From Pelagicoccus enzymogenes (GTDB lineage: Bacteria > Verrucomicrobiota > Verrucomicrobiia > Opitutales > Opitutaceae), in NCBI RefSeq assembly GCF_014803405.1, contig NZ_JACYFG010000051.1, positions 620,001 through 684,000 of the forward strand: a stretch of DNA of 64,000 bases, given 5' to 3'. Made by a program: the position numbers and the translations under genes. Under the pieces are notes generated by a model, which was given only the letters and a program-made list of their open reading frames with translations, was not told where the DNA came from and ran no database searches. Shown in pieces: positions 22,501 through 59,750 of the stretch; within the stretch, counting starts at the first letter, position 1, and each line of letters starts with the position of its first letter.

Positions 22501-23320
22501 CAATGGAGAGGCGGTCGTGGTGGAAGTTACGACGCAAGGGTCAGGAAAGTGGTTAATCAATTTCAGCGGCACAGCGGGTGTTCAGCCGGACAACTACAAC
22601 GCGACGCCGGCGATAGCTACCAGTGCTGTGATCTACGTGCTGCGTTTGCTTGCGGCTGTGGATGTTCCATTGAACGAAGGGTTCCTAGATGTAGTGGATA
22701 TCAAGATACTCGAAGGAATGCTGAACCCGTCTTTTGATGAGGATCCTAGAAATTGCCCTGCGGTGGTGGCGGGCAACGTTGAGGTGAGCCAACTGGTCGT
22801 TTCTGTATTGTTGAAGGCTTTTGGCTTAGCCGCTTGTAGCCAGTCTACCATGAACAACTTGATTTTCGGAACAGATTCGTTCGGCTACTATGAGACGATA
22901 GCCGGAGGTGAGGGGGCTTCTCCTACCAGAGCAGGAGCGAGTGGCGTGCATACCCATATGACGAATACGGCAATGACCGATTCGGAAATCATGGAAATCC
23001 GTTATCCTGTGCGAGTGGAATCATTCGCTTTGCGTAGCGGATCCGGCGGAAAGGGGATTCATCGCGGTGGCGATGGAGTCACCAAACGTATACGTTTTTT
23101 GGATGCGGTAACGCTTTCGCTGCTGACGCAACGAAGAAGGCAAGCTCCCTTTGGCATGGCAGAAGGCGAGCCGGGTTCTTGCGGAGAGCAAATCTTGATC
23201 GATCCAACGGGCGCTCGAACGATCTTGCCGGGCAACGGTAGTTGGAACTTGAGCGCGGGCAGCGTGTTGGAGATTCGTACTCCCGGAGGCGGCGCTTGGG
23301 GGCGCGGTTCACAACCTTAG
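19526..23320 (+). CDS. ATP-dependent 5-oxoprolinase / N-methylhydantoinase, fused A and B subunits
   Basis: A 1264-residue protein close in size to single-chain eukaryotic 5-oxoprolinases. Residues 1-700 are the HyuA half (FWIDTGGTFTDC at the start; FDMGGTSTDVSRFDG; GAGGGSVCWFDG-like VAAGGGSVCWFDG). Residues 735-1264 are the HyuB half (ERAAFSTNVKDRKDFSCALLD, TNHPAYGGSHLPDVT, GDGVTKRIRFLDAV). It hydrolyses 5-oxoproline to glutamate, or related imides, at the cost of ATP. A good ribosome-binding site AAGGAG (19511-19516) lies 9 bp before the ATG at 19526, which fixes the start. An insertion of about 75 residues separates the LSSSALRG segment from the TTRGTNALLE segment. Two REP-like sequences lie inside the gene at 20440 and 21566, read in frame as ENRVTSTLTG and EESREKQAPTE. 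Confidence 0.88.
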   Translation: MSWKFWIDTGGTFTDCIALSPEGEELRVKTLSSSALRGSVVEVIDGNRLRVKLAYPVCKDFYVGYGFRVTSVSSPCSSSVASLGAGKRANVIAWDPRNCEMTLDTDLLGVEVGQLCELQSPEEPPVLAVRILTEKRLDQALPELEMRLATTRGTNALLELKGAKTAFLVTEGFGDLLRIGNQQRPDLFEIGIQKVEPLHNCVFEVSGRLASDGSEIARLDEGAVRGFAQSALAEGVESFSVALLHSYRNGEHEKRVAEILRQEGAKYVSVSSELSPFVKLLPRAETALVDAYLAPIMDSYLDAVENRVTSTLTGAPALRVMTSAGGLVSRSNYRPKDSLLSGPAGGVVGSSLSGLQAGEGRSIAFDMGGTSTDVSRFDGQLDYRFEQKIGAARVFAPSLRIETVAAGGGSVCWFDGSALRVGPQSAGANPGPACYGAGGPLAITDVNLLLGRLDASKFGIPVFLERAEERLLELQRSILESTGEAMSREAILEGLLAIANETMAEAIRKISTGEGYDPADYVLVAFGGAGGLHACAVASILDMDTIVFPSDAGLLSAKGLRHAQVEHFEGRQVLRNLGECEKDLEAWIGELRVKAERCLAEDGIDAAEIDSREPRFELRYRGQESILTLEGGELSELRARFEAAYREQFGFLPDGLEIELVAVRVAAVSGDSGLGEECFEESREKQAPTEAYMVRSDLEAGQTLSGPFVIQDPFSTVYVDTGWTATVGNQGTLKLRRVETMEKGQSQGEVVDLELFTNRFLSIVDEMGALLERAAFSTNVKDRKDFSCALLDPDGYLLANAPHIPVHLGALGVCLRTVLQRMELEPGDVVVTNHPAYGGSHLPDVTLLAPVYTESGDKLLGYVANRAHHAELGGISPGSMPPNAQNLAEEGVVIAPLKLASKGSVDWKPLLRLLKEGPYPSRSLDENVADLSAQLASIRRGQSALMQLAEKEGCSRVGKYMSLLKERAATALRQALSATDCVGKGRYRESLDNGEAVVVEVTTQGSGKWLINFSGTAGVQPDNYNATPAIATSAVIYVLRLLAAVDVPLNEGFLDVVDIKILEGMLNPSFDEDPRNCPAVVAGNVEVSQLVVSVLLKAFGLAACSQSTMNNLIFGTDSFGYYETIAGGEGASPTRAGASGVHTHMTNTAMTDSEIMEIRYPVRVESFALRSGSGGKGIHRGGDGVTKRIRFLDAVTLSLLTQRRRQAPFGMAEGEPGSCGEQILIDPTGARTILPGNGSWNLSAGSVLEIRTPGGGAWGRGSQP
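20440..20464 (+). repeat. REP-like element, type B, inside the oxoprolinase gene
   Basis: GAATCGCGTGACAAGCACGC followed by TC, identical over 22 bases to the intergenic copy at 15184. It is translated in frame as (E)NRVTSTLT within the HyuA half, between YLDAVE and GAPALRVMTSAGG. Confidence 0.75.
21566..21592 (+). repeat. Degenerate REP-like element, type B, inside the oxoprolinase gene
   Basis: TCGCGTGAGAAGCAGGCTCC followed by CACA. It differs from the type B core at two compensating positions (GAC to GAG, CAC to CAG). It is translated in a different frame from the copy at 20440, as ESREKQAPT, near the end of the HyuA half. Confidence 0.6.
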
Positions 23321-25629
23321 CGTTTGCTGCTGATTTGCCGGTCCGCACGTTCGAGTACCGCCCTGAGGGAGGGAATTGAAATGGGCTTTGAAATATAGTC
23401 GTCCATGCCTTGAGCCAGAAAGCGATCCTTTTGTTCAGTCAGGGCGTAGGCGCTTTGGGCGACGATCCAAACGGGAGAGTCGTTTGCGAGCTGTTTGATT
23501 CGACGGGTGGCCTCGATTCCGTCCATCTTCGGTAGCTTTACGTCCATCAAGACGATGGGATACCGCTTGGCTTGCCAAAGCTCGATCGCTTCTTCCCCGC
23601 TTTCCGCAATGTCGTGCGGGCACTGGAGGTGTTTCAAGATGGCGCTGGTGACGAGCTTGTTGTTGGGTTCGTCTTCGACGAGGAGGATTTTCGAGGGCGC
23701 TGGCTGGGTCGCTGGGGCAACGTCTTGAACCTTGGTCTTTTCTACCGGGGACGGGTGTGGTTTCTCCAATCCAGGAAGGGTGATGTAGAAGCGTGTTCCG
23801 TTAGCGGTATCGCTCTCAAATTCGATCTTCCCATCGAGTAGCTCGATGATGCGTTTTGAGATCGCGAGCCCGAGACCCGACCCCCTTTGGGACTTGCTCA
23901 AGGAATCGCGGCCTTGGCGAAATGGCTCGAACAAAGACTTTTGCTCTGGTTTCGGGATACCTGAGCCAGTATCGGAAATTGAAATACGCAAGGAGCTACC
24001 GATGGAGTCGAGGCTAACCTTTATCGATCCCGACTCGGTGAACTTTATGGCGTTTCCGATTATGTTGAACAGCACTTGCAGCAAGAGTTGCCCATCGGTG
24101 TTTAGGGCGCTGTTTCGCGGAGCGCGGTTGTCCAGCGTATATTCCAGGCCTTTTTTCTTCGCGCTGGATGCCAGGGGGAGTAGGCGCCCGCTGAAGAAAC
24201 TGTCGATATCCAGAGTTTCGCGCTTTGGCTCGAGGCTGCCGCTCTCGATCTTAGCGAGGTCGAGTATGCTGTTGATCAGCTCCAGCAAGTGGGTGGACGA
24301 AGCAAGCATGATATCGACAAGGGGAGCCTTGGCATCGTCATCGGTTTGTAGTTTAAGCAATTCGCAGGGGCCCACGATGGAGTTGAGAGGGGTTCTCAGC
24401 TCGTGGCTCATCATGGCGAGAAATTCGGATTTCGCCTGATTGGCTTTCTCTGCGGCGACTTTGGCTCGCTGCAGTTCCTCTTTTTGTCTTTGGGATTCCG
24501 TGACGTCGTGGACGAGGCTGGCGACTCCGATGATCTTGCCGTGTTGGTCGACGAGGCTTGTGTTGTGCCATTCGCAAATGCGTTTGGAGCCGTCCTTGTG
24601 CAGGTTCTGGTTTATGGACCGTTTGCCGCCTCTATTGGAAACGAGCCGAGCCCAGACCTCCTTCGTCTTTTCTTGGGTTTCTGGGTCGATGATGATGCTA
24701 CCGGGCTGTCCGACTGCCTCCTCTCGGGTGTATCCGAAAATCTGAGTCGCTGCTTGGTTCCATTCGGTAATGCGGAAGTCGAGTCCCCACTCGATGACTC
24801 CGAGTGGCGTTTGTTCGACGTGCAGCCGCATTCTCTGGTTTTGGGCTCGGAGTTCCTCTTCGAACCACTTGCGTTCGGAAATGTCTTGGGCGAGGGCATA
24901 GACGAGGCCCTTTTCCGGTAGGGGGCGGGAGCTCCAATCGAGCCAAACGTAGTGCCCGTCTTTGTGCATGACCCGGTTTTGAAAGGAGTACTGGATTTGC
25001 TTTTCTTCCAGCAAGGTTTCGACGAGTCGTTCCGAACGTTCTCTGTCCTCGGGATGGATAAATTCCACGAGAGGGGTTGAAAGGAGTTCCTCTTTGTCGT
25101 AGCCGAGGGTGGTCTCGAAGGCGGGGTTGACGTCGAGGTAGTAGCCCGTCTGGAGGTCGGCGACGCAGATGAGGCTGATGGTATTCTCGAAGATGGCGCG
25201 GTAGTGAGTTTCCGCTTTGTCGAGGCGGCGTTCGGTGTCCAGGCGCTCCGTGAGCCCGCGGCAGACGGCGATGAAGATCTCTCTCTGGTCGAGTTCCCGA
25301 TAGATCGTGTGCATCTCGACGGGAAAGGTCTCGCCTCGCTTGTTGCGGTGCTCCGTGCGATAGACGGCGGAGCCCTGCTCGCGTAAGCGGTCGATGCGAG
25401 GAATGAGTTCGGCTTTTATGTAAGGGGCTTCGATGTCCCAGGGGCCCATTTTCTGGAATTCGTTTTCGCTGTATCCATAGCGGGCGACTGCTGCTTCGTT
25501 TGAAAGCACGATGCGACGGTTGCTGTGATCGTAGACGAAAACGGGATCGGGAAGACTGTAGAAGGCGGCCTCGTAACCTAGTTTCTCTGTGATCGAGGAA
25601 GGGTTAGGATCGGAATTTGGTCGAGGCAT
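23317..25629 (-). CDS. Hybrid sensor histidine kinase (PAS-PAS-PAS-HisKA-HATPase-REC)
   Basis: A 770-residue soluble hybrid kinase. Three PAS domains lie at about 20-125, 143-255 and 265-380 (FVYDHSNRRIVLSNEAA; FENTISLICVADL; QTPLGVIEWGLDFRITEWN), each followed by a PAC-type strand. The HisKA motif MSHELRTPLNSI has phospho-acceptor His409. The HATPase has N-box NIIGNAIKF and G-box DTGSGIP. The C-terminal receiver has ILLVEDE and phospho-acceptor Asp696 in VLMDVKLPKMDG. No transmembrane segment, so it reads a cytoplasmic signal such as redox state or a ligand. It needs a separate Hpt to pass phosphate on; two free Hpt genes are at 55067 and 58239. It overlaps the convergent oxoprolinase gene by 4 bp at the stops. 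Confidence 0.9.
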   Translation of the reverse strand: MPRPNSDPNPSSITEKLGYEAAFYSLPDPVFVYDHSNRRIVLSNEAAVARYGYSENEFQKMGPWDIEAPYIKAELIPRIDRLREQGSAVYRTEHRNKRGETFPVEMHTIYRELDQREIFIAVCRGLTERLDTERRLDKAETHYRAIFENTISLICVADLQTGYYLDVNPAFETTLGYDKEELLSTPLVEFIHPEDRERSERLVETLLEEKQIQYSFQNRVMHKDGHYVWLDWSSRPLPEKGLVYALAQDISERKWFEEELRAQNQRMRLHVEQTPLGVIEWGLDFRITEWNQAATQIFGYTREEAVGQPGSIIIDPETQEKTKEVWARLVSNRGGKRSINQNLHKDGSKRICEWHNTSLVDQHGKIIGVASLVHDVTESQRQKEELQRAKVAAEKANQAKSEFLAMMSHELRTPLNSIVGPCELLKLQTDDDAKAPLVDIMLASSTHLLELINSILDLAKIESGSLEPKRETLDIDSFFSGRLLPLASSAKKKGLEYTLDNRAPRNSALNTDGQLLLQVLFNIIGNAIKFTESGSIKVSLDSIGSSLRISISDTGSGIPKPEQKSLFEPFRQGRDSLSKSQRGSGLGLAISKRIIELLDGKIEFESDTANGTRFYITLPGLEKPHPSPVEKTKVQDVAPATQPAPSKILLVEDEPNNKLVTSAILKHLQCPHDIAESGEEAIELWQAKRYPIVLMDVKLPKMDGIEATRRIKQLANDSPVWIVAQSAYALTEQKDRFLAQGMDDYISKPISIPSLRAVLERADRQISSKR

Positions 25630-31589: not shown

Positions 31590-33227
31590 ATGAAACTCAC
31601 TTCGAAAATTCTCCTAGGCGGCACCGTTCTAGTCGGACTTGTTGTCGGTACCTCGCTCGCAGTCATGTATCGGTCAATCGAGAGCCAGGGACTCGACATG
31701 GGGAGGGATCGCATGAAGTCGATCCTGCATCAGGCGGAAGCGGTGAAGGACCACATGTCGGACTTGGTGCGGATGAAGGCGTTTGACCGCGAGAAGCTGG
31801 TAGGCGAATTGCGGCAAGAGAGCGACTATCGAAATACGACTTTTTATCGTACCATTCCAGTTGTCGCTTCGTGGCAGACCATCGAAAGCATTGCGGCGGA
31901 GGAGGGCGTGAGTTTGCGTACGCCGAAGTTCGATGCCCGTAACCCTCGCAATGAGCCAAGCGAGGATGAGGCAAAGATTCTTAGCTACCTAGAGAGCTCG
32001 GGCGCTTCGGAATATTTCGAGAACGACACGGACAACGGGCTGATGGTTTATGCGAGGCCGGTGGTGCTGGAGAAGAGTTGCCTCTATTGTCACGGTGACC
32101 CGAGCACGAGTCCGACCGGCGACGGCAAGGATGTCCTTGGCTTTGCCATGGAGGGATGGAAGGAAGGGGAGGTGCACGGAGCATTTATCCTGAAATCCAG
32201 CACGGAGCCGATTTACGATGCGGTTCTGGCCAGTTTTGGCAACGTATTGATGTGGGTGCTTCCGATGTGTCTGATTTTTGGATACATCGCATTTCGCCTT
32301 CTGCGCACCAAAGTTGTCGCTCCCATCGAGTCGGCGATCTCTGAAATTGCCAACTCTACCCACGCAGCTGTCGGCGCGTCCAAGGAAGTCACGGATTCGA
32401 GCGTGAGCCTTGCGGATGGGGCTTCGCGTCAAGCGTCTGCTCTTGAAGAAACCAATGCTTCTCTGGTGGAGATATCGACTGCGATTCAGGACAACCTTTC
32501 CAATACGAACCAAGCGGTCGAAGTTGCTCAGGAAACGCGCAAGGGAGCGGACAAGGTTTTCGAGCGGATGCAAGAGTTGCGTGGCGCGATGGGAAGCATC
32601 GCGGAATCGGGAGCGGAGATTTCTAACATCATTAAAACGATCGAGGAGATCGCCTTCCAGACCAACATCCTGGCTCTGAACGCAGCGGTGGAAGCGGCGC
32701 GGGCTGGCGAAGCCGGCGCTGGATTTTCGGTGGTTGCGGACGAGGTGCGTCAATTGGCGATGAGAGCTTCTTCAGCTGCCCAGGACTCTGCGTTGCGTAT
32801 CCAGCGTTCGGTGGAAGCGAGCTCGAGAGGCGATAAAATTTCCACGGCGGTAAACTCGGATTTGGAATCGATAACCAAGCAGGTGCACAGCATCGACGAC
32901 TTGCTGGAATCCTTGCAAAAAAGCTCGGCCCGTCAGTCCATGGGCATTGAACAAGTGAGCACAGCGGTGACGGATATCGATCGCGTGACGCAAAGCTCCG
33001 CTTCGAGCAGCGAGGAGCTCGCCTCGGCGGCGGTCGAAATGTCGGGACAGGTTACGACCTTGCAGCGAGCGATCGAGTCGCTGCGAAGCGTCGTGAACGG
33101 AGAGCAAGCGGAGTCGGCTGGCGGCATTGGATCCAAGGTGCAAAGACAGGCCGCAAAGCGTCAGGATTCGACGCCGGATGCGTCTCGTCTGAAGGAAAGG
33201 AGCCCGGAGGCTTCGCTCTGGAATTAG
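31590..33227 (+). CDS. Methyl-accepting chemotaxis protein with DUF3365 c-type haem sensor
   Basis: A 545-residue receptor. It has a first helix (residues 8-28) and a periplasmic DUF3365/Tll0287-like domain (about 30-205) with a haem c motif CLYCH (Cys164, Cys167, His168). A second helix (215-238) and a cytoplasmic signalling domain follow, with the MCP hairpin tip [21 protein letters not shown] near 350-370. The C-terminus lacks a CheR-docking pentapeptide. The covalent haem predicts sensing of redox state or a diatomic gas in the periplasm. It has no HAMP that can be clearly recognised. No che genes lie nearby, so it must work with a chemotaxis system elsewhere. The ATG at 31590 begins the first membrane helix. 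Confidence 0.88.
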
Positions 33228-39477: not shown

Positions 39478-40959
39478 ATGGCAGATCTTTTTTGGTCCTA
39501 CTGGGACGCATCCGTACGCTTCGCCTTGCTGAGCTTTTTCATGCTTTTGGCCATACCGGCCTTGAGGCGCTGGCTTTCACCCAAATTGCTGTGTTGGGCT
39601 TGGGCTCTGTTGGTGATCCGGCTTTCCCTGCCCATCGCATTGCCGTTCAGCCACAGCATTTTCAACCTGAGCGAGAATTTGCAGCCGTCCACTTGGACGA
39701 GCGTGTTGCGCAGTGGCGTGGTCGAGGCGGGCTGGGGCGAAACCTTTCTCCCTGACTTCCGCACCCAGGACGAATTGGTCAAGAGCACCTTGGTGGGCTT
39801 CTCCTGGGAAAACGCTTTGGTATCGCTCTGGGCGATCGGTATCTTGGTCTTGATCGGACGCCTGGTGACGAACGCCATCCGCTTGCATCGCTTTTTCAAC
39901 CGCGCGGAGCGGATCAACTCCGGGCGTTTGTACGAAGTTTTCAAGGATACGCGACGTCGCTTCGGAATCCACGCCAACGTGCCGCTGCTGGTTTCGCGGG
40001 ATGTGAAGACGCCGGGGATCGCTGGTATCTTCAATCCGCGGGTGGTCATCCCCAAAGTGTTGGCTGACGAGTTGAGCGACGAGGAGATCCGCTGCGTTCT
40101 TCTGCACGAGCTGACCCATTACAAGCGCGGAGACTTGTTCCTGCATCACCTTCTGATGCTGGTTTGCTTCATCCATTGGTATAATCCTTTGGTTTGGCTG
40201 GTTTTCCGTCAGTTCAAGATTTCCATGGAGCAGGCCTGCGATGCGGATGTGGTCAACACGGTCAGCATCACCACCGTGCGCGACTATGGCATGACGCTCT
40301 TGCGGGTGATGCAGCGGTGCCGCGGCTCTCTGGTTTCTCCTGCGGGAGCGCTTTGCCTGCTCGGCAACCGCAAGGCCAGCGCCTTGCGCGATCGCATCCA
40401 TTTGATCGCGAGCCCGCGCCGTTCGGCTCCCATTTTCGCAATTCTCGGGCTCGGGCTCTTTGGCGCTTCCTTCGTTTATTCGATCACGGAAGAAGCAGAG
40501 GTCGAGAACGAGGCAGAGCGCTTGCTGGGGCTGACCCGCTTTTCGGGTTCGGCTTTCTTCCGTCTCGCAGGACAGGAGCAGGACCGGGCTGACGACATCG
40601 AGATTGGTCGTCTTTTGGATTCGGCCCTGCTGAACAAGCCTCGCAGCTGGCTGCAGGAAGTTGATGTGTCCAGCTTTGCCGGGCGGGAAGTGGTTGCCCG
40701 CGTGACCTACGAGGTGGATGCTGGGAGCTCCGGTCAGGATTTTTGGGTTTCGGTCAAGAACGAGGACGGTCGCATCATAAATCGGACCTCTACCGCGATT
40801 GTCAGGGACGCGGGCTCGGACCTTCGCTTCATGGAGTTGAGGTTAGGGCTGGCTAGTAGCGCTCGGGAGATCGACTACGGCTTGAGGGCGAGCGGCTCTT
40901 CGGGCGTATGGCTCAGGTCATTCGAGTTGTTGGAGCCCAGCGGCAGAGAGAGACCGTAG
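39478..40959 (+). CDS. M56-family membrane metallopeptidase sensor (BlaR1-like, without penicillin-binding domain)
   Basis: A 493-residue protein with N-terminal membrane helices (about 12-55 and 108-130) and the zinc protease motif HELTHYKRGD (His210, Glu211, His214), with the third ligand in EQACDADV (Glu251). A further helix near 322-345 (APIFAILGLGLFGASFVYSI) leads to a C-terminal extracytoplasmic domain of about 145 residues. In BlaR1/MecR1 that domain is a beta-lactam-binding transpeptidase fold. Here it is much shorter and beta-rich (VDVSSFAGREVVARVTYEVD, GVWLRSFELL), resembling a jelly-roll or carbohydrate-binding module. The signal is therefore probably not a beta-lactam. It starts 1 bp after blaI. 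Confidence 0.85.
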   Translation: MADLFWSYWDASVRFALLSFFMLLAIPALRRWLSPKLLCWAWALLVIRLSLPIALPFSHSIFNLSENLQPSTWTSVLRSGVVEAGWGETFLPDFRTQDELVKSTLVGFSWENALVSLWAIGILVLIGRLVTNAIRLHRFFNRAERINSGRLYEVFKDTRRRFGIHANVPLLVSRDVKTPGIAGIFNPRVVIPKVLADELSDEEIRCVLLHELTHYKRGDLFLHHLLMLVCFIHWYNPLVWLVFRQFKISMEQACDADVVNTVSITTVRDYGMTLLRVMQRCRGSLVSPAGALCLLGNRKASALRDRIHLIASPRRSAPIFAILGLGLFGASFVYSITEEAEVENEAERLLGLTRFSGSAFFRLAGQEQDRADDIEIGRLLDSALLNKPRSWLQEVDVSSFAGREVVARVTYEVDAGSSGQDFWVSVKNEDGRIINRTSTAIVRDAGSDLRFMELRLGLASSAREIDYGLRASGSSGVWLRSFELLEPSGRERP

Positions 40960-42784: not shown

Positions 42785-45607
42785 GTGACGCTCTCGAAGC
42801 TACTAACTCTATTGTCTTTGAAGATCTTGGTCGTGGTGATTCTCACCATGAGCGCGATCTCGGCTTTGGCGTGGGGGGTGGTCGTGAAGCAAAAAACTTC
42901 GGGAGAAGGGTCGGTGCATCGCCAGTTGATTGCGGAGTTCGTTTATCATGCGCGGGAGCTACGTTTGTTGCATGACGTCCACAGTTCCGGCGACGCAGAC
43001 TATTTAGGTTTCCTCGTCGAAAGCCGCCTCGAGAAGTGCGAGGAGGTGATTGGGCAGATGGGGAAGAGCGGACGAGCGCTTCGCGATTACAACTGGAGCG
43101 AGGTTGAAAGCTCCTTTCGAGACTACGTCAGGGCGGCGGAGGCGGCGCTCGGCGCTCCGGGGAACGACGGAAAGCAGTGGGTTTTTCACGATGCTTCGAA
43201 TGCCTTTGAGGATACATTGCGACGATTGGAGAGCAGAGCGAGGACGGTGCTGCATGAGCAGGAGGCTTCGATTCGCAGCATGAAGTGGGTGGCGGCAACA
43301 GGTTCCTTGTTCACCCTCGCGGTGCTGGTGCTCTTCTATTTGCGTACGATTCGAGAAACGATTCGTCGGCTTTCAACGCCGATAATACTTCTGTCGCGGG
43401 CTGCGGATCGGGCGGTTCGCGGGGCGAAGAGCATCCGGTTCCGAAACACGGAAGTAACGGAGTTGCAGAGCCTTGGGCAGAGCTTGCAGCAGTTTTCCAA
43501 TCGCATGCACGAGCTGGTAGGCGAGCGGACCAAGGAGCTGACGGAGTCCAATCTCGCGCTCGAGCGGCAGATCGAGCGGGCCGAGGCGTTTGCTCGGCAA
43601 GCCAAGGAGGCGGAAGAGGCGAAGTCGAAGTTCTTGGCCAACATGAGCCACGAGATTCGAACTCCGATGAATGGTATCCTCGGAATGAATACTGTTTTAA
43701 GGGAAACGGAGTTGGACGACGTGCAACGGCGTTATTTGGATACACTTTCCAATTGCTCGGAAACCTTGATGGTCTTGATCAACGACATTTTGGATTTTTC
43801 CAAAATCGAGGCGGGCAAGCTAGAAATTGACTACAGCCCGTTTGACCTGATCGAAGTGATGGAGGAGGTGGCCACATTGTTTGCCTTGAATGCGAGCCAG
43901 AAGGGATTGGATATCGTGGTGTTGGCCAATGGAAAACTGAGCGTTCCGGTGAGGGGGGATTCCCATCGCCTGAAGCAAGTTCTATCCAACCTCGTGAACA
44001 ATGCCATCAAGTTTACGGATCAAGGTTCCATAGAAATCGGGGTCGAGCTGGAAATGGCTGCGGACGAGCTCGTGGCGAATCTTTGGGTTCGGGATACGGG
44101 GATCGGGATACCTGAAGATGTTCAGCGAAAGCTCTTCAAGGCGTTTTCGCAGGCGGACGAGTCGACCTCGCGGAAGTTCGGCGGGACCGGACTAGGATTG
44201 GTGATCAGTCAACGCCTGGTGGAATTGATGAACGGCGCGATCGGCCTTTCGAGCGAAGTTGGAGTAGGATCCAAATTTTGGATACGGATGCCCTTCGCTC
44301 GTTCGGAAGGGCCTCGGTTTCAGTTGGGAAAGGCGCAGCGCGAGAAGTTGGAGCAGCGGCGTATCCTGATCGTATCGGATCGGCCGGACCTTGCTTACTC
44401 CCTGCAGTATGCGTTGCGGGAAGCGTCGATCGAAGCGGACGTGGCGGCGGATTTCGAGGACAGCAAGCTCTTGTTGGAGGAGGCAAAGTTCGATGGTCGT
44501 TCGTTTACGGACGTGGTGTTTGACGAGGCGCTGGGTTTGGGGCCGTGGAAGGCGTGTTTGGGGCAGATCAAGATCAGAAGTCTCATGTTGGCGGATCCCT
44601 CGCTTCGCCGAACCAGCTTGGACGTGCCGGTGGCTGGAGTGCACCTACTGCCATCTCCTGCTTCGGCTCGCCGTATCATTCATTCCATCCTGAACGAGGA
44701 GAACGTGCAGCGAAAGCGTCGTCGCGAAGGGGACGCCCTTCCGCAGTTTCCCGAGGCGAAGATTTTGGTGGTCGACGACAACGATGCGAATCGCTTGGTC
44801 GCTGAGGAGCTCTTCAAGCGGCATGGCATCCATCCGCACCTGGCGTCCAGCGGCTGGGAAGCGCTGGAGGAGACGTGCCGGACGAAGTTCGACATCATCT
44901 TCATGGACTGCATGATGCCGGAGCTCGATGGATTCGAAACGACGGGGATCATCCGCAGCGGCAGGAATGGCACGCTCTGCCGGGATTCCCAGATCGTGGC
45001 GTTGACCGCGAATGCGATGTCGGGCGACCGCGATAAGTGTTTGAAGGCAGGCATGGACGATTACTTGGCCAAGCCTATTCGACCAAAGGTGCTGACGGAA
45101 AAGCTACAGCAGGTTTTCGGAGACGGGGAGCAGCGGGCGGTCGAGGCCGATCCGATTGAATTTTCAAGGGAAGAAAAGAACTCCGAGGCTCTAGAACATG
45201 CCGGGCCCGGGCTTGAAACGCCTGATGTCTCATTGCCAAGTGCCGAGTCCGAACTCTTCGACCTGGAGGAGCTTTTGGGTATGTTTGGCGATGACAGGGT
45301 TTTGATCGGAAGCTTGGTCGACGAATATTTGAGTGGCTTGGACGATACTTTCCAGGCCTTGCGCATGGCTATCGAGGAAACGGCGGACATCGATAAGGCG
45401 CGCTTGCATTCGCATAGCATGAAGGGGAGCTCCCGCAGTTTTGGGGCAAATCGCTTGGGCGACGTGGCCGATGACGTGGAGATGGCGTGCGTGAGCGGGG
45501 TTTGGAGCCAAGTTGAGTTGGCGTGGCGCAAGATCCCCCTCACGATAAAGGAAACGAAGACGGAGGCGCAGCGCCTGAAACGCGAGGTGCTCGGCTTGGA
45601 GAGCTGA
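42785..45607 (+). CDS. BarA-like hybrid sensor kinase (TM-HAMP-HisKA-HATPase-REC-REC-Hpt)
   Basis: A 940-residue inner-membrane kinase, GTG start at 42785. Two helices (12-33 and 168-187) flank a periplasmic sensor of about 130 residues. HisKA follows with His289 in [13 protein letters not shown], then HATPase ([16 protein letters not shown]). A first degenerate receiver at about 525-635 ([15 protein letters not shown]) has lost the catalytic Lys. A complete receiver has Asp708 in [14 protein letters not shown] and Lys763 in LAKPI. The C-terminal Hpt domain has phospho-His877 in HSHSMKGSS. This is a full His-Asp-His relay that can pass phosphate to an external response regulator. No such regulator is adjacent. 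Confidence 0.9.
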
Positions 45608-48643: not shown

Positions 48644-48859
48644 ACTCGGAAAGGGGGCATTTGACTGCGTGAGGAGAGCAATTGCGAGAAGAGTCTTTGC
48701 GGCGTTCGCGCGGGATGGCCCGAGGCAAGCGTCTTTTTTGCGGTGGGGTAGTCTTGAATTATCGCCCTGCGGGTTTTGCGAAATGTGAAAAAATGTGTGT
48801 GTTCAGTATTACAAACTTGGGTTCTGTTTGGATCCGCGGTTTGCTGGAGAAGTTGGGAG

Positions 48860-50512
48860 ATGTCCGCTCTCGTTATGGTTGAAGCAGAAGACGAAAGGGA
48901 GGGGAGCGAGGCTCGGACTTTGGGTCCGAAGGGTTCGCTCCGGAGAATTCTTGTTGTTCAGGAAAGCGAGGTTGATCGCGTTTTTTTGGAACGCCTCTTC
49001 GACGCCCGCGGTTTGCGGAAGCGCTTCAGCTTGACCTTCGCGCCGGATCACGAGGTTGCCTTGGATCTTCTGGAGAGGAAGGGTTACGAGGTGCTTTTGC
49101 TGGACCTAGGCCTCTCGGCGGAGGTGGACATGGATTGGCTGGACGCCTTGCAGGCGAGGACCAATTGCCCCCTGCTAATCCTCAGCGCCTTGGACAACGA
49201 GGAGATTGCGGTGCAGGTGATGCAAAGGGGAGTGCAGGACTACCTCAGCAAGAACGAGTTGACCGCGATCGCCCTGGAGCGAACCATCAACCACTCGATC
49301 GAGCGGTATCGTTTGATGGCGGAGCTGTCGCAAGCCAAGCGAAAGGCGGAAGCTGCCTCCCAGGCTAAGAGCGATTTTCTGGCTGTCATGAGCCACGAGT
49401 TTCGCACCCCGATGAACGGAATCATTGGTGGGATAAATCTCCTGACGACGCTTTGCGAGAAGCAGCAGGCGCAGGAGTTGTTGAACATGATGCGGGAGTG
49501 CGCGGAGAGCCAACTGACTTTGATCGGCGACGTCTTGGACATCAGCAAGATCGAGGCGGGCGGGTTGGAGTTGTCCTACGAGCCGTTCAGCCCGCGCGAT
49601 CTCATCTCTAGCGTGCTGAGCGCCGTGTCCTATGCTGCTCGAGAGAAGGGGATCAAGTTGGCGGTGGATATCGACTCGGGAATGCCGCGGGAGTTGATTT
49701 CGGATGCGCGTCGCTTGCGACAGGTCTTGATTAACTTGGCCGGCAATGCGGTGAAGTTCACGGTTGAGGGCGAGGTGAGGATCCATGCTCGCAAGCTGGA
49801 AGGGGAGCTCGTCGAGTTTCGCGTGACGGACACGGGGATTGGGATCGAATCGTCGGATATCGACTCGATTTTCGACACCTTCACGCAGGTCGATTCCTCC
49901 TACAGCCGCCGCTACGCGGGAGCTGGGCTTGGCCTGGCCATTTGCAAGCGCCTCGTGCGGATGTTGGGCGGTACCATTCGGGTCGAGAGCGAGGTGGGGC
50001 GTGGATCGGATTTCCATTTCACCGTGACTTGCAGGGAGCGCGACGATGCGGAGGACCAGAGGCGGGACTTGGAGAGCGATGCGTCGATCCGGTTCGCGGA
50101 GGCATATCCCTTGGCGGTGCTGGTCGTCGAAGACAGTCAGCTGGTGCGCAGCTTTCTCATGGCGACTTTAGGAAAGCTGGGCTACGATCCGCATGAAGCG
50201 GAATCTGGCAAAGAGGCGCTGCAGCTTGCGGAGAAGAACCATTACGATGCGATATTCATGGACATTCGCATGCCGGACCTGGACGGGTTCGAGACTGCCA
50301 CGATGCTCTTCGAAATGCAGAAAAACCGGGACGGTTGCGTTCCTTATGTCGCAGCGATTTCCGCTACCGTAAATGACGAGATCAGCCTGGAGTGCGATGC
50401 CCGCGGGATTGACCGACTTCTCTTCAAGCCCATTGAAATCGAGGAGATCCGCGGGACCTTGCGCCAAGCTGCTCGCTCCCGGCCAAAGCCGCCTCGCGAC
50501 GATTTGCTCTGA
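48860..50512 (+). CDS. Hybrid histidine kinase (REC-HisKA-HATPase-REC)
   Basis: A soluble protein of 550 residues from the ATG at 48860; a TTG at 48776 is an alternative start. The first receiver is unusual: its acidic pair is replaced by Gln-Glu (VVQESEVDR), though Asp82 is present in LLLDLGLS. It has HisKA His179 in [13 protein letters not shown], HATPase ([16 protein letters not shown]) and a canonical second receiver with Asp467 in [13 protein letters not shown]. No transmembrane segment, so activation must come through the first receiver or a partner. There is no built-in Hpt; the free Hpt proteins at 55067 and 58239 are candidates. It is divergent from larE. Confidence 0.88.
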
Positions 50513-53643: not shown

Positions 53644-54555
53644 CTAGGAGTCGAGTCCTATGTCGATCCAGGTGGACTGGTGCACGGTGGCTCCGGTGGA
53701 GATGAAGTCGAGCCCGAGTTTCGCCAATTCGGGCAGGGATTCTATGGTGATGCCGCCGCTCGCTTCGGTGACAGCCCGGTCGCCGATGAGCGTTACCGCC
53801 TGTTTGAGTTGATCGACCGAGAAGTTGTCTAGAAGGATTATATCGACGCGGGCGGCGAGGGCGTGCTCGATCTGCTCTAGGGTGTCCACTTCCATCTCCA
53901 CGAGAATCTGGGGATGGCGCCTGCGGGATTCCGCGACGGCGTCGATTGCGGATTGGCGAGGGTTTTCTCCGAAAGCAGCCAGATGGTTGTCCTTCAGCAT
54001 GACTCGGTCGAAGAGGCCGATGCGATGGTTCCAGCCGCCACCGCAAGCGACGGCGTATTTTTCGAGCGTTCGGTAGCCGGGGGTGGTTTTGCGGGTGTCG
54101 AGCAGCCGGGTGGAGCTGTTTCCGAGGGCGTCCACGTAGCGTTGCGTGAGGGTGGCGACGCCGGAGAGCTTTTGCAGGAAATTAAGCAAGGGACGCTCGG
54201 CGCTGAGCAAGCTTCGCGCTGGACCGCTCACTGTTCCGATGGCATCGCCTCGAGCGAGAGTGTCGCCGTCCGCCGCTGCCGCTGCGAAGGCGAGCTTGGG
54301 ATCGTAGGCGGCGAGGACATGCGGAGCCAGCTCGACGCCGCAAAGGGTGATGGGGCTGCGGGCGCGGAGGGTGGTTTTCACCGTTTGGTCAGCGTCGAGC
54401 AAGGCGGAGGAATGGTCGCCCGGAGTGTCGGTGCCGCGGCTGAGCCCGCCGCCGGCTAGGTCCTCAGATTTCGCGAGCTGGATAAGCGTTTGGAGAGGAG
54501 CGAGGTCGAGGTCGGCCCAGGTGAGGCGCTGGCAGCAACGTTCGGGTTTTTTCAT
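53644..54555 (-). CDS. nadC: Nicotinate-nucleotide pyrophosphorylase (carboxylating)
   Basis: A 303-residue quinolinate phosphoribosyltransferase of NAD synthesis. It makes nicotinate mononucleotide from quinolinate and PRPP. Family marks: LSGVATLTQRYVDAL, LLDTRKTTPGYRTLEKYAVACGGGWNHRIGLFDRVMLKDNHLAAFG and VEMEVDTLEQIEHAL, ending EASGGITIESLPELAKLGLDFISTGATVHQ. The start is the ATG at 54555; the frame is open upstream to 54975, but that region overlaps the opposite-strand gene at 54675. No nadA or nadB is present in the window. It is probably co-transcribed with birA. Confidence 0.93.
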   Translation of the reverse strand: MKKPERCCQRLTWADLDLAPLQTLIQLAKSEDLAGGGLSRGTDTPGDHSSALLDADQTVKTTLRARSPITLCGVELAPHVLAAYDPKLAFAAAAADGDTLARGDAIGTVSGPARSLLSAERPLLNFLQKLSGVATLTQRYVDALGNSSTRLLDTRKTTPGYRTLEKYAVACGGGWNHRIGLFDRVMLKDNHLAAFGENPRQSAIDAVAESRRRHPQILVEMEVDTLEQIEHALAARVDIILLDNFSVDQLKQAVTLIGDRAVTEASGGITIESLPELAKLGLDFISTGATVHQSTWIDIGLDS

Positions 54556-54674
54556 TGGTGCGGCGAATAGTGGCGGCGATTGTGAAAGAGTGAAGGGCGA
54601 AAAAGTGAAAAGTGCGGGGACTGGCGAAGCGTTTGGCGCTTGAGAGGCGAGGAGCGGCTTGCTTGCATCGGAGG

Positions 54675-54965
54675 ATGGATTTGCAGGATTTTGTGAGGTC
54701 GCTGGAGCAGGAAAATCCCCCTCAAGAAGTGGATGGGGCTCTCTTGGCTTTGTGGTGGGACGCGAAGGGGGACTGGAGCCGGGCCCACGAAATCGCCCAG
54801 GATGCTGCCAGTCGCGAGGGCGATTGGGTGCATGCCTACCTCCACCGCAAGGAAGGGGACGAAGGTAACGCGGGCTACTGGTACAGCCGGGCCCGTCAGC
54901 CTGTTTTCCACGGGGCGTTGCAAGAGGAATGGCGTAAAATCGTTTCCGCTCTCCTGGAAGTGTGA
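54675..54965 (+). CDS. Small conserved protein of unknown function
   Basis: A 96-residue protein starting MDLQDFVRSLEQENPP. The signature LLALWWDAKGDWSRAHEIAQ, followed by GDWVHAYLHRKEGDEGNAGYWY and EEWRKIVSALL, is shared with a group of short hypothetical proteins in several phyla, from memory of similar sequences. No signal peptide or metal motif. The many Trp residues and the Asp-Trp/His pattern suggest a helical repeat of TPR size. The ATG at 54675 has GGAGG immediately before it. It is divergent from nadC. Confidence 0.65.
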   Translation: MDLQDFVRSLEQENPPQEVDGALLALWWDAKGDWSRAHEIAQDAASREGDWVHAYLHRKEGDEGNAGYWYSRARQPVFHGALQEEWRKIVSALLEV

Positions 54966-55066
54966 GGCGTTTCAACTAGGCACCTAGGTGCGATCTTTCC
55001 GAGATATCGGGGGCCTTGTTTGATTCCGCTCGGGTTTTGCGCAAGCTTGCCTGTCGTCTTCGATTC

Positions 55067-55432
55067 ATGAAAGATTCCTCTCGCCATGAATTGAAGCTCT
55101 TTGCGGCCGAATCGCTCCTTTCTCGACTGATGGACGATGAGGAGTTGATGAGGAAGGTTTTGCAGGCTTGCCTGCAAGACCTCAGCCGAAATTTTGAATT
55201 GCTCAAATCGAGTGTCGAAGCGGGGGACGAGTCGACTGCGGGCAAGGTGGCCCATACATTGAAGGGGTCGGCCAAGAACGCAGACCTGCGGGCTCTGGCA
55301 GCGATTGCCCTAGAGATAGAGGAGGGTTTGAAAGCGGGGGATAGGGTCGGAGTCGAAAGGCGTCTAGAGGATTTGTCCACTGTCGTGAGGGATTCTATCC
55401 GTGAAGTGGAGAGGTACCTTACCGGGATCTAG
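55067..55432 (+). CDS. Hpt (histidine phosphotransfer) protein
   Basis: A 121-residue helical protein with the Hpt motif VAHTLKGSAKNADL, phospho-acceptor His63. It should shuttle phosphate between receivers of the hybrid kinases in this region and response regulators. It begins MKDSSRHELKLFAAESLLSRLMDDEELM. A second Hpt protein with the same His position and the shared pattern SRLMxDEEL...VLxAC is at 58239. An in-frame extension to 55016 is less likely because it lacks similarity to the paralogue. Confidence 0.85.
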   Translation: MKDSSRHELKLFAAESLLSRLMDDEELMRKVLQACLQDLSRNFELLKSSVEAGDESTAGKVAHTLKGSAKNADLRALAAIALEIEEGLKAGDRVGVERRLEDLSTVVRDSIREVERYLTGI

Positions 55433-55751
55433 ATAGAGGATCGTTTCGCCGCGCTAGGTTTGGGAACTCGGTCGCTGGAGTTGCATTACCTAGCTTTGTA
55501 AAAACGAGGTAAGCGAATCGCCCCGCTTTACGCTTACTTTACGGGAAGAAGCGGCATTGCCGCATGCGATTTTAAAAGGAGCGTTAATGGGGCGAGAGGG
55601 TGAAGTTTGTGGCGCTTACCTGCTTCGTAGGAAGATTCTCGCGCCGTTCTCTAGGGTGGTGGAGCTACTTGCCAGTACACTTTGGTCCGAGCTTTGCCGC
55701 AGCGAACGGGCCAATGTGATTGGCCTGAATTACTTAACCACTGATTGCACC
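55433..55751. other. Intergenic region with possible structured leader
   Basis: 319 bp without a clear gene. It carries three inverted repeats: TTACCT/AGGTAA (55486-55491, 55507-55512), GTAAGCG/CGCTTAC (55509-55515, 55531-55537) and GCGGC-ATT-GCCGC (55551-55563). The first two share GTAA (55509-55512) and so cannot form together. No known riboswitch consensus was recognised. Confidence 0.35.
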
Positions 55752-56894
55752 ATGAACGCCACTAAAGAACATACCTCAGACAAGTCAGCCTCTGCTCCTT
55801 TGAACGTCTTGATTGTAGACGACAGCATACACGACTACCGCTCCCTTTCAGTCATGATCGGGGCGAATTCAGACAATAGATACGAGTTCGATTGGGCGCG
55901 AAATTCGGAGGAAGCGGAGTCCAAGCTCGAAGTAGGCGCTTACGAGATTGTCGCGGTAGACTATAATCTCGGCTTAGAGGAAGGCTCGGAAGTGATTCAG
56001 AAGCTTTCTGCCAACTACCCGGCGTCCTCCTACATCATGGTTACGGGGAACCAAGACCCGGACGTCTACAAGCGCGGGATACGCGCTGGAGCGGTGAACT
56101 TCGTTCAGAAGAACAAGGAATGTGGAATGATTTTCGACCGAATGGCCCAGTATGCGGTTGAGAGAAAACGATCGGAGAGCTCCTTGAAGATGGCGAACGC
56201 CTCGAAGGATTGGCTGATGTCGCTTTTGGAAACGGATCTCGCGACTCCCTTGTTCGCTTTGAACCAGATGCTTTCCACTACCTACAAGGAGGCCGAGAAT
56301 ATGCCCAAGGAGATGCTGATCGAGCTTTTGGATACAGCTTACCAAACTTCCTGCGAAGCCTTGATCGCGACCAAGGAGCTTCTGGATTGGGGGCGCAGCG
56401 TGCGTGGGGCGATGCGCCCGAATCTCGCCATGGTAGATGTATCGGGGTGCATTCATCGAGCGGTTCGCCTACTCACCTCCTTGGCCGACGAACGGGGGAT
56501 CTACATCGCCCAGCGCGGAGTCTTCGACTTCAAGGCCTATTGCGACGAGCGAATGCTCTCGACTGTCCTTCGAAATCTACTCTCTGCAGCGCTGTCGTAT
56601 TCTGACAACGACAAGACGGTCTGCATCGAATCGGTAGTGGTGGATGGGCACCTTTCGCTTGGGATCAACAGCGAGGGAAGCGGCATCGAAGCCCGCTCCT
56701 ACGCGTCGCTTTTCGACTCCAAGGGAACCGACAGCGAGTCGTGCAGCCCGATCGAGCGTCAGTCTATTTGTTCGATCCAGGTGGCGAGCCACATGTTGGA
56801 TTCGATGGGTTGTTCCTTGGAGATTCGCAACGATCCCAAGAAGGGAGTACGCTTCACCTTCAAGCTCCCGCTGAAATTCCCCATGGGAATCTAG
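55752..56894 (+). CDS. Receiver domain fused to a degenerate histidine-kinase-like module (pseudokinase)
   Basis: A 380-residue protein. The receiver (18-125) is intact: Asp24-25, Asp70 in EIVAVDYNLG, Thr98 and Lys120. It is followed by a HisKA-like helix in which the usual SHELRTPL reads ETDLATPL, so the phospho-acceptor His is replaced by Thr161. The HATPase-like region keeps the shape (VLRNLLSAALSYS, LGINSEGSGIE) but lacks the magnesium-binding Asn of the N-box (Ala279) and a normal G-box. It can receive phosphate but not phosphorylate itself. Start at 55752 (MNATKEHTSDK). It is between Hpt and a REC-kinase gene and probably acts as a regulated scaffold for the relay. Confidence 0.8.
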   Translation: MNATKEHTSDKSASAPLNVLIVDDSIHDYRSLSVMIGANSDNRYEFDWARNSEEAESKLEVGAYEIVAVDYNLGLEEGSEVIQKLSANYPASSYIMVTGNQDPDVYKRGIRAGAVNFVQKNKECGMIFDRMAQYAVERKRSESSLKMANASKDWLMSLLETDLATPLFALNQMLSTTYKEAENMPKEMLIELLDTAYQTSCEALIATKELLDWGRSVRGAMRPNLAMVDVSGCIHRAVRLLTSLADERGIYIAQRGVFDFKAYCDERMLSTVLRNLLSAALSYSDNDKTVCIESVVVDGHLSLGINSEGSGIEARSYASLFDSKGTDSESCSPIERQSICSIQVASHMLDSMGCSLEIRNDPKKGVRFTFKLPLKFPMGI

Positions 56895-56945
56895 AAGACC
56901 CCTTGAACAGGCCTGCCTAAAATCGTATTTGTCGCTCGAATCATC

Positions 56946-58079
56946 ATGGAATTCCCAAGACCCATTCAAGTTCTGCTCGTGGAGGACAGCCGCGACCATG
57001 CGGTTTTCTTCACGGCTGCCTTGGGCAAGGGCTTCAAGCACACGCATGAAGTGACGGTGGTGGAGTCACTATCCGAGGGTTTCGCTGAATTGTCGTCGGG
57101 CCATTACGATTTGATCGTGCTAGATCTTGGCCTGCCTGAGAGCCAGGGACTGGATACGCTGAAGACTTTCTTCCGAGCGATGGGTCCAGCGAATCCTGTC
57201 ATCGTGCTGACGGCGAATTCCGATGAAGGAATTGGCGAGGAATCCTTGCGGCTGGGGGCGATTGACTTCCTTACCAAAGGGGAATTTGGGGCGGACCAAT
57301 TGTCGCGGACGGTACGGTATGGGCTCGAGCGCTGGCGTCAGCGCCGCGAACTGGAAGAGGCCCAGAGAAATCTCAAAAGCTTTGCCCATGTCGCGGCTCA
57401 CGACCTGAAGTCTCCGGTGAAGTCAATTGGCCTCTATGCAAGCTTGCTGAAGCAGAAAGCGGCTTCGCGGGATGCGGACGAGGAAGAAATCGAGTTTATC
57501 GAATATATCGAGTCCTTCACCGAGCAAGCCGAGAAGCTGGTCGATAGCCTGCTAAATTTCAGTGTCCTCGGAGAAAAATCTGTTGAGTTGGGTACGGTGG
57601 AAGTGTCAGCGATCGCTGGCCAAGCGGTGTCTAACCTCAGCGCATTGGTCGAGGAGGAGTCCGCCACGGTAGAAGTGGGGGAATTGCCGCTAGTCCAAGC
57701 GGACGAGGGGCTTTTGGTTCATGTGCTGCAAAACTTGATCTCGAACGCGATCAAGTATCGCGGCGAAGAGCCGCCGCTCGTCAAGGTCGCGGCCATGGTG
57801 CGGGGAAGCGAGGTCGAAATCGCAGTTCAGGACAATGGGCGTGGGATCGATGCGAAGTATTTCTCGAGGATTTTCGAGCCCTTCAAGCGTTTGTCGGGGC
57901 CGACGCATCCGGAAGGTGTCGGGCTGGGCTTGGCTATCTGCCAGCGAGTGGTTGAGGCCCACCGGGGTAGGATTTGGGTCGAATCGGAGCAGGGGCGCGG
58001 TTCTGTGTTCCGGTTTACGCTTCCCATGGCGGAAGCGAGCGTACGCCCTTCGCTGGGAGTGCACTGCCAATTAGGCTAG
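56946..58079 (+). CDS. REC-type histidine kinase
   Basis: A 377-residue soluble protein with an N-terminal receiver (LLVEDSRDH, Asp60 in IVLDLGLPES) and a kinase core with His152 in HVAAHDLKSPVKSI and HATPase motifs (VLQNLISNAIKYRG, DNGRGID, EGVGLGLAI). The AHDLKSPV box and receiver-first order resemble phytochrome-type or Rcp-linked kinases. It is 51 bp downstream of the pseudokinase and 159 bp before the second Hpt gene. A relay from this His through a receiver to Hpt is plausible. No membrane segment. Confidence 0.88.
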   Translation: MEFPRPIQVLLVEDSRDHAVFFTAALGKGFKHTHEVTVVESLSEGFAELSSGHYDLIVLDLGLPESQGLDTLKTFFRAMGPANPVIVLTANSDEGIGEESLRLGAIDFLTKGEFGADQLSRTVRYGLERWRQRRELEEAQRNLKSFAHVAAHDLKSPVKSIGLYASLLKQKAASRDADEEEIEFIEYIESFTEQAEKLVDSLLNFSVLGEKSVELGTVEVSAIAGQAVSNLSALVEEESATVEVGELPLVQADEGLLVHVLQNLISNAIKYRGEEPPLVKVAAMVRGSEVEIAVQDNGRGIDAKYFSRIFEPFKRLSGPTHPEGVGLGLAICQRVVEAHRGRIWVESEQGRGSVFRFTLPMAEASVRPSLGVHCQLG

Positions 58080-58238
58080 CCCCTAGGCGGCCTAGGTAGC
58101 TCTCGCGTTTTTCCTGCGCAGAGCAGCTCATCAGGGCAGGGTTTTTCGCTCTGACTTGGGGGCTTTGCTTCAATACTCTATTGCCTCGCCGTTCAATTGT
58201 TAGATACCATCCTCTCCCTATCCAGCTCCTGAACGAAA

Positions 58239-58601
58239 ATGGCCGAACCTGCTTTTAATCCCACCAATCTTTTTGACTTGGAGAGCCTCAAATCCCGCCT
58301 GATGGGGGATGAAGAGCTTGTCGCGCAAGTGCTTGAAGCCTGCGTCCCGGATATCAACGCAAACTTTAGAGACTTCGCTTTGGCTATCCAATCCGGCGAA
58401 GTCGAAACCGCGACGGTTCGCATCCACGCGATGAAAGGGGCCTCTCAAAACGCGGACTTGGTTGCTGTATCCGAGTTGACACAGCAAATAGAGTCTTCGC
58501 TCAGAGCGGGAGACACCGAGTTTGCCCGCCAAAGCGTGGACCGGCTGGAGGAACTGGTGGGGCAAACGATCGGCGAGGTGCGGCGCTACCTCAACAACTA
58601 G
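58239..58601 (+). CDS. Hpt (histidine phosphotransfer) protein
   Basis: A 120-residue Hpt protein with RIHAMKGASQNADL and His63. It closely resembles the Hpt protein at 55067 in length, His position and the helix LESLKSRLMGDEELVAQVLEAC. The start ATG at 58239 has no strong ribosome-binding site. Together with the preceding three genes it forms a cluster Hpt, REC-pseudokinase, REC-kinase, Hpt. It may receive phosphate from the REC-kinase or from the unlinked hybrid kinases. Confidence 0.85.
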   Translation: MAEPAFNPTNLFDLESLKSRLMGDEELVAQVLEACVPDINANFRDFALAIQSGEVETATVRIHAMKGASQNADLVAVSELTQQIESSLRAGDTEFARQSVDRLEELVGQTIGEVRRYLNN

Positions 58602-58658
58602 GAGCTGCTCCAGCTCCGGGGTTTAAGGAGTTGATTAGAGCGTCTTAGCGGATAGCTT

Positions 58659-59750
58659 ATGCTCATCCAGCCTATGTTCCGTCCTCGATTTCTCTTTGCC
58701 CTCGGTGTCAGTCTAAGCTTGCTCGCCTTCAGTGGTTGCGACTCAACGTCATCGGCCGAACGCAGGGCGGAGCAAGCCCGCAAGGAAGCCGAGCAAGCTC
58801 GGATGCGGGCGGCGTTCCTAGGGCGTATCCACGAAGCGGAGTCAAAGGTTTGGCAGGTTTTGCACCCCTTGATCGAGAAAGCGGCGAACTATCGGGCAGA
58901 AGAAACGCACGGCTACATTGGGGCCGCGTTTGTCACGGAGGCCTTCTACAGCGAAGCCTTGTTAGTGGAAGCTCGAGCGGAAGGTTTTGGACCTTGGGTT
59001 TCGGTGCTCACCGTTTTTCCAGACTCGCCTGCGGAGAGCGCTGGCTTGCGGGCAGGCGATCGTCTGCTCTCCATCAACGGCTCGAAGGTACCGGAAGGGT
59101 CGCGTTCCGCCCTTTATGCGGCGCGGCAGGTGAAGCGTCAGCTGGAGCCCGGAGGACCGAACCAATTGCTTGTGCAGCGCGGCGACGAAGTGCTCGAGTT
59201 GGAGGTGCAACCTGTGGAAGGCGCATACTATGGGGTGGTCGTAGTGGCCTCCAACGCAGTGGATCTGCAGGTCGATGGGGACGTCATTTGGATTGGCCTC
59301 GCTTTAGTGGAGAATCTAAAAAGCGAAAAAGACCTGAGCTATTTGTGCGCCTACGCCCTCGCGAAAAACGTGATGCGGCACTCCAAGCAGAAGGGCAAGA
59401 ATGCGATGTTGGGTCAGATCCTCGACGTGGCGGCTGCAGCCAGTGGGGTCAATACAGGAGGTCTCTTTGGGGGAATGGGGGGCAACGCCTATTCGCACGC
59501 CTTCGAGGTGGAGGCAGATTTGATTGCTCTGTACTTGCTCGCTTCGGCTGGGTATGAGTTTTCCGAGTATCCAGATTTTTGGGACCGCGCTTTGCGCAGC
59601 CGCGATCGAAATGGCGAGCTTACTGCTAAAGAAAGCGAACGCATTGAAACAGCGAGCAAGGTCGTCGCGTCTATTCGAGAGAAGATCGAGGCCGAGGAAG
59701 CGATTTTTCCGGAGGAGTACTTGCAGGGAGACGTCAGCGAAATCGAATAG
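58659..59750 (+). CDS. PDZ lipoprotein with inactivated M48 peptidase domain
   Basis: A 363-residue lipoprotein; LAFSGC gives Cys27. An Arg/Glu-rich coiled coil (33-65) is followed by a PDZ domain (about 108-185, VLTVFPDSPAESAGLRAGDRLLSINGSKV) and an M48-like domain. The zinc motif, normally GHELAHNVMRH, reads AYALAKNVMRH (231-241): His232 is Tyr, Glu233 is Ala and His236 is Lys. The third ligand region EVEADLIALYLLASAGY is kept. Zinc binding and hydrolysis are thus lost while the fold is retained. It may act as a binding or chaperone-like factor at the outer membrane. A Met at codon 6 is an alternative start. Confidence 0.8.
   Translation: MLIQPMFRPRFLFALGVSLSLLAFSGCDSTSSAERRAEQARKEAEQARMRAAFLGRIHEAESKVWQVLHPLIEKAANYRAEETHGYIGAAFVTEAFYSEALLVEARAEGFGPWVSVLTVFPDSPAESAGLRAGDRLLSINGSKVPEGSRSALYAARQVKRQLEPGGPNQLLVQRGDEVLELEVQPVEGAYYGVVVVASNAVDLQVDGDVIWIGLALVENLKSEKDLSYLCAYALAKNVMRHSKQKGKNAMLGQILDVAAAASGVNTGGLFGGMGGNAYSHAFEVEADLIALYLLASAGYEFSEYPDFWDRALRSRDRNGELTAKESERIETASKVVASIREKIEAEEAIFPEEYLQGDVSEIE

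Follow-up and report, generated by a model that had tools for sequence, protein, structure and literature searches.

In Leptospira, phosphorylation of the receiver of LvrB leads to a coiled-coil in the signalling helix and the CA domain is freed (PMC13269768). In Pseudomonas aeruginosa, RetS, which has a degenerate HATPase, was shown to curb GacS in three ways, namely siphoning, transmitter phosphatase activity and a block of autophosphorylation (PMC5992135). The RetS phosphatase activity requires a T at position +4 of its His (PMC5992135). DivL of Caulobacter has a dead kinase core that binds DivK~P, and it possesses neither kinase nor phosphatase activity (PMC4211667). LvrB (PDB 8vc9) is the best match in the PDB to the fold of PK, a predicted pseudokinase of Pelagicoccus enzymogenes, which belongs to a marine genus of the Verrucomicrobiota, and DivL and RetS are also among the matches. 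Among the papers searched, none deals with histidine kinases of Pelagicoccus.

PK is encoded in a four-gene island at positions 55067-58601 of the window, the whole 64-kb stretch of DNA that was analyzed, from a genome of 6.2 Mb. The earlier note had described four consecutive same-strand genes for an Hpt, a REC-pseudokinase, a REC-kinase and an Hpt, and the Pfam domains and coordinates bear this out. Hpt1 (55067..55432, + strand) is a stand-alone histidine phosphotransfer protein (Pfam Hpt, E 3e-11) in which the His and the HxxKG motif are kept; its start is the ATG at 55067, with a TTG at 55016 as a possible upstream alternative. It is followed on the + strand by PK (55752..56894), with REC, DHp-like and HATPase-like parts (Pfam REC and HATPase_c; AF2 model), by KIN (56946..58079), a Rec-controlled histidine kinase (Pfam REC, HisKA and HATPase_c), and by Hpt2 (58239..58601; Pfam Hpt, 2e-8), a paralogue of Hpt1. 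The genes are separated by about 320, 51 and 159 bp, so that PK and KIN look co-transcribed and the two Hpt genes may have their own promoters. Scans for promoter and terminator patterns in 54500-58800 gave sites no more numerous than in shuffled sequences, and no named Rfam family or tRNA was found in the window.

The PK alignment consists of eight Pelagicoccus orthologues that are 50-82% identical to the window's PK. Their receiver is complete: the acidic pair, the phospho-acceptor Asp70 (codon at 55959..55961, + strand), Thr98 and Lys120 are present in all eight. The kinase part lacks the residues of an autokinase. The phospho-His position holds Thr in seven orthologues and Lys in G005, the N-box Asn is replaced by Ala or, in G005, by Gly, the G1 Asp is missing from 7/8, and the F box and the G2 glycines are missing from 8/8. 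Asp70, Lys120, Thr161 in ETDLATPL and Ala279 (56586..56588, + strand; motif table of the aligned orthologues) at the N-box position are all as the earlier note had given them, and neither the His nor the N-box Asn, the two residues whose retention in relatives it had named as counting against its proposal, is found in any of the eight. The full set that marks a Rec-HK (phospho-His with the N, G1, F and G2 motifs) is kept by none of them. Such a loss of autokinase residues, conserved in 8/8 orthologues under purifying selection, is what defines a pseudokinase. Pfam detects HATPase_c in seven of the eight and gives no HisKA match in any, even at E<=5. The AF2 model of PK, built on the eight-sequence alignment and of moderate confidence (mean pLDDT 73.8), has a REC domain, two DHp helices and a HATPase fold. 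From this pattern, PK appears to be a dead derivative of LvrB-type Rec-controlled histidine kinases. Another option is that PK is an unconventional enzyme which phosphorylates, or is phosphorylated on, Thr161, since this residue is present in 7/8 PK; the Lys at the site in G005 and the absence of the N, F and G2 motifs throughout speak against it, and we consider it highly improbable.

One feature of the lost phosphorylation site is kept. Compared with the RetS-type H-E/D-x-x-T/N motif, the His is lost and the acidic D at +1 and T/S/N at +4 are retained in 8/8 PK; in the window this segment runs from Thr161 to Thr165 (56232..56246, + strand; alignment, codons read). A possible phosphatase motif is retained where active HisKA kinases have theirs. 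The +4 residue is only suggestive because D and P near the site occur throughout the family and KIN itself has S at +4 in 7/8 cases; in the five f21 relatives the residue is A or G. No nucleotide site is visible in PK, and the phosphatase activity of HisKA proteins is often nucleotide-assisted. The spacing between the receiver Lys and the phosphosite is 41 in all 16 PK and KIN proteins. A heptad rule between Rec-HK classes was dropped, as the spacings 40, 41 and 47 are not all multiples of seven apart, and only the equality between PK and KIN is used here.

KIN is of the active type. The phospho-His and the N, G1, F and G2 motifs are present in 8/8 KIN, and across KIN and the other tabulated REC-HK or hybrid kinase domains from the same taxonomic order the H, N, G1 and most of the G2 residues are kept. 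The LvrB sequence matches KIN over its full length (8-362, E 9e-23). The LvrB-type arrangement of an N-terminal receiver, helix, DHp and CA with no other domains is found in both KIN and PK, judging by the Pfam order, the AF2 models and the LvrB match, and KIN can be assigned with good reason to the Rec-controlled kinases of this architecture. The trees, which have long branches, do not settle a sister relationship of PK and KIN (AU p 0.175 with the HK part and 0.306 with REC), and the origin of the pair from tandem duplication of a single ancestral gene is neither shown nor rejected.

PK and KIN are neighbours in all eight sampled Pelagicoccus genomes, with gaps of up to about 320 bp, and in five of these Hpt1, PK, KIN and Hpt2 are collinear together with a PDZ protein; the grouping is not a matter of chance. 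Loss of the cluster in relatives had been named as evidence for a chance grouping, and such a loss was not seen outright: the PK-KIN pair is conserved throughout, although the Hpt genes accompany it in only 5/8 genomes. Upstream of the five complete islands there is nadC with a small gene in three and a nucleoside diphosphate kinase with a ketoacyl synthase in two, and Hpt1 stays joined to the island on either side of this rearrangement breakpoint. One reading of the locus is a relay in which KIN or a hybrid kinase would phosphorylate the PK receiver, from which the phosphoryl group would pass to Hpt1 or Hpt2 and then to an unlinked output regulator, with the dead kinase part serving only for dimerization. 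The two Hpt proteins with intact phospho-His that flank PK-KIN in the five genomes fit such a relay, as does the genome G006, where a 1322-aa PAS-HK-REC-REC-Hpt hybrid kinase ending in an Hpt of the island family lies directly upstream of PK (L040:2276-6244). However, the pair occurs without any island-family Hpt at the locus in G002, where the order is ketoacyl synthase, nucleoside diphosphate kinase, PK and KIN, and in G005, where PK-KIN lies in a different gene context. A relay also leaves unexplained why the DHp is the most conserved part of PK, and we regard it as rather unlikely.

In a draw of 372 genomes of the order, which left out one genus member, a profile built from PK gives 630-735 bits in members of the genus and no more than 126 bits in the others, and the next-best matches are REC-HKs with an intact His. 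PK therefore appears to be a lineage-specific product of the genus Pelagicoccus as far as sampled. A contig search with PK gave four relatives, namely Pelagicoccus mobilis, two Pelagicoccus strains and Verrucomicrobiae bacterium DG1235. In the genome G127 (L042:3364-7339) a PAS-HK and a single REC protein come before an active REC-HK, and this layout could feed the receiver of the latter.

Both Hpt proteins score above the cut-off of PF01627 with an invariant phospho-His, and their alignment (A4) has invariant His, Lys and Gly. With a profile built from them, Hpt1, Hpt2 and the G006 Hpt reach 142-190 bits, as sequences that themselves trained the profile, and other Hpt domains at most 45. By these measures Hpt1 and Hpt2 belong together in a single family, with the Hpt at the C-terminus of a PAS-hybrid kinase as a relative. 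Outside the island the profile of A4 scores highest on a 1340-aa hybrid kinase from G002 (73 bits), followed by hybrids of 1323-1352 aa in G000, G001, G004 and G007 (55-61 bits), with a few others scoring close to these. These hybrids are 38-45% identical to the G006 hybrid over nearly the full length, and it is plausible that Hpt1 and Hpt2 derived from such a PAS-hybrid kinase.

The window contains other hybrid kinases with which the island had been proposed to form a branched relay. Their domain make-up is as the earlier note described it for the proteins at 23317, 42785 and 48860: by Pfam, a PAS hybrid kinase without Hpt (23317-25629), a BarA-like hybrid kinase with its own Hpt (42785-45607) and a REC-HisKA-HATPase-REC protein without Hpt (48776-50512). 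The branched relay itself is not supported, and a link between the island and these kinases was rejected on synteny. In G007 about 0.5 Mb separates the island from the BarA-like and REC-kinase-REC genes, and in G004 these genes lie on a different contig; the PAS hybrid was found in 3/8 genomes and is unlinked from the island in the two besides the window. Since the hybrids are unlinked or absent in relatives, their closeness in the window is no evidence for a shared relay. In each of the five genomes with a BarA-like gene, the REC-HK-REC gene lies about 3 to 11 kb away from it, and this pair is a candidate module of its own, independent of the island. The window also encodes a methyl-accepting chemotaxis-type protein with a Tll0287-like domain (31590-33227) and a BlaR1-type M56 peptidase (39478-40959).

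A second set of data comes from the conservation of the separate domains. Among the five close species and among all eight, the identity of PK is 0.87 and 0.73 in REC, 0.91 and 0.77 in the DHp and 0.70 and 0.52 in the HATPase-like part; for KIN the values are 0.76 and 0.65, 0.80 and 0.68, and 0.68 and 0.60. The receiver and DHp of PK are thus conserved above the same domains of KIN, and conservation within PK is lowest in the HATPase-like part. Together with a dN of 0.05-0.31, far below a dS that is above 1 or saturated, this argues that PK is selected and not decaying, with its REC and DHp under strong purifying selection, and that the most strictly kept portion is the receiver together with the DHp, which is the dimer and docking module. 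One could still read PK as a kinase gene that is being lost, in four genes grouped by chance, given its lost motifs and its weakly conserved HATPase-like part. This is contradicted already by dN far below dS, and in 8/8 species PK, at 50-82% identity, is still open and collinear, in an island unit that is intact on either side of the upstream breakpoint; we hold such decay to be very improbable. A further possibility is a phosphate sink, in which the PK receiver drains KIN or the Hpt proteins and the remaining protein is a leftover scaffold. The receiver is complete in 8/8 PK and receiver siphoning is one of the three RetS mechanisms (PMC5992135). However, a sink needs the receiver only, yet the identity of the PK DHp exceeds that of both the PK REC and the KIN DHp. 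A pure sink is weakened because the DHp is the most conserved domain of PK, and we find it quite unlikely. What stands of the earlier proposal, as far as sequences can tell, is that next to an active kinase lies a protein that can be phosphorylated but is dead as a kinase.

We favour the explanation that PK regulates KIN as a catalytically dead protein gated by its receiver, similar to RetS and DivL but built as a Rec-HK, and we put the chances of this at about even. The retention of the PK receiver, helix and DHp, the spacing equal to that of KIN and the precedents of RetS and DivL favour such a non-catalytic regulator over a relay step or a sink. In this mechanism a Rec-controlled histidine kinase would have turned into PK as a dedicated regulator of the neighbouring KIN. 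Asp70 of PK might be phosphorylated by KIN, by a hybrid kinase or by an Hpt, and this may alter the signalling helix and the DHp, as in LvrB. The DHp of PK could then act on KIN, or on the partner receiver of KIN, by docking or as a heterodimer, like RetS with GacS and DivL with CckA, and/or PK could use the retained D-x-x-T/S/N motif to dephosphorylate a receiver, in the manner of RetS. Where present, Hpt1 and Hpt2 would carry phosphoryl groups between the receivers of PK and KIN and a hybrid kinase encoded at another place in the genome. The adjacency and equal spacing of PK and KIN are no proof that the two proteins bind each other. A specific arrangement, in which PK and KIN, their helix spacings being equal, form a mixed DHp dimer where only KIN catalyses and its activity is set by the phosphorylation of the two receivers, is in our opinion unlikely; if true, it would place a two-input logic inside one kinase dimer.

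This receiver-gated regulator can be compared with the known systems. LvrB shares the order of REC, signalling helix, DHp and CA over the whole length of PK and aligns end to end with KIN. However, LvrB is active with His161, whereas PK is without the His and the ATP-site motifs, and the upstream partner of LvrB, LvrA, is a hybrid kinase whilst PK and KIN each have a second Rec-HK as neighbour. RetS resembles PK in its degenerate HATPase, its phosphoryl-accepting receiver and the T at +4, and it restrains another sensor kinase; it differs by its retained His (HExxT), its two receivers and its sensor part, whereas PK lacks both the His and a sensor domain and has a single receiver, at the N-terminus. 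DivL is also a pseudokinase with a replaced phospho-His, whose DHp docking surface is repurposed to act on another kinase, but it carries PAS sensor domains, and the receiver that it reads (DivK~P) is a separate one, whereas PK has its own. In CheA3-CheS3 of Rhodospirillum centenum (PMC3868531), two receiver-kinase hybrids are likewise paired and one controls the other through receiver phosphorylation, but there the two are members of a chemotaxis-type cascade and act as kinases. The dead and live Rec-HK pair, found in every sampled species of the genus, would separate a receiver-driven conformational switch from catalysis, and it makes it possible to test directly for control of a kinase in trans by a receiver that acts through a dead partner. 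Of the proteins compared here, the pseudokinases are DivL and RetS, and LvrB, the prototype of the Rec-HKs, is an active kinase; in Pelagicoccus what appears to be a natural dead Rec-HK stands beside a live one.
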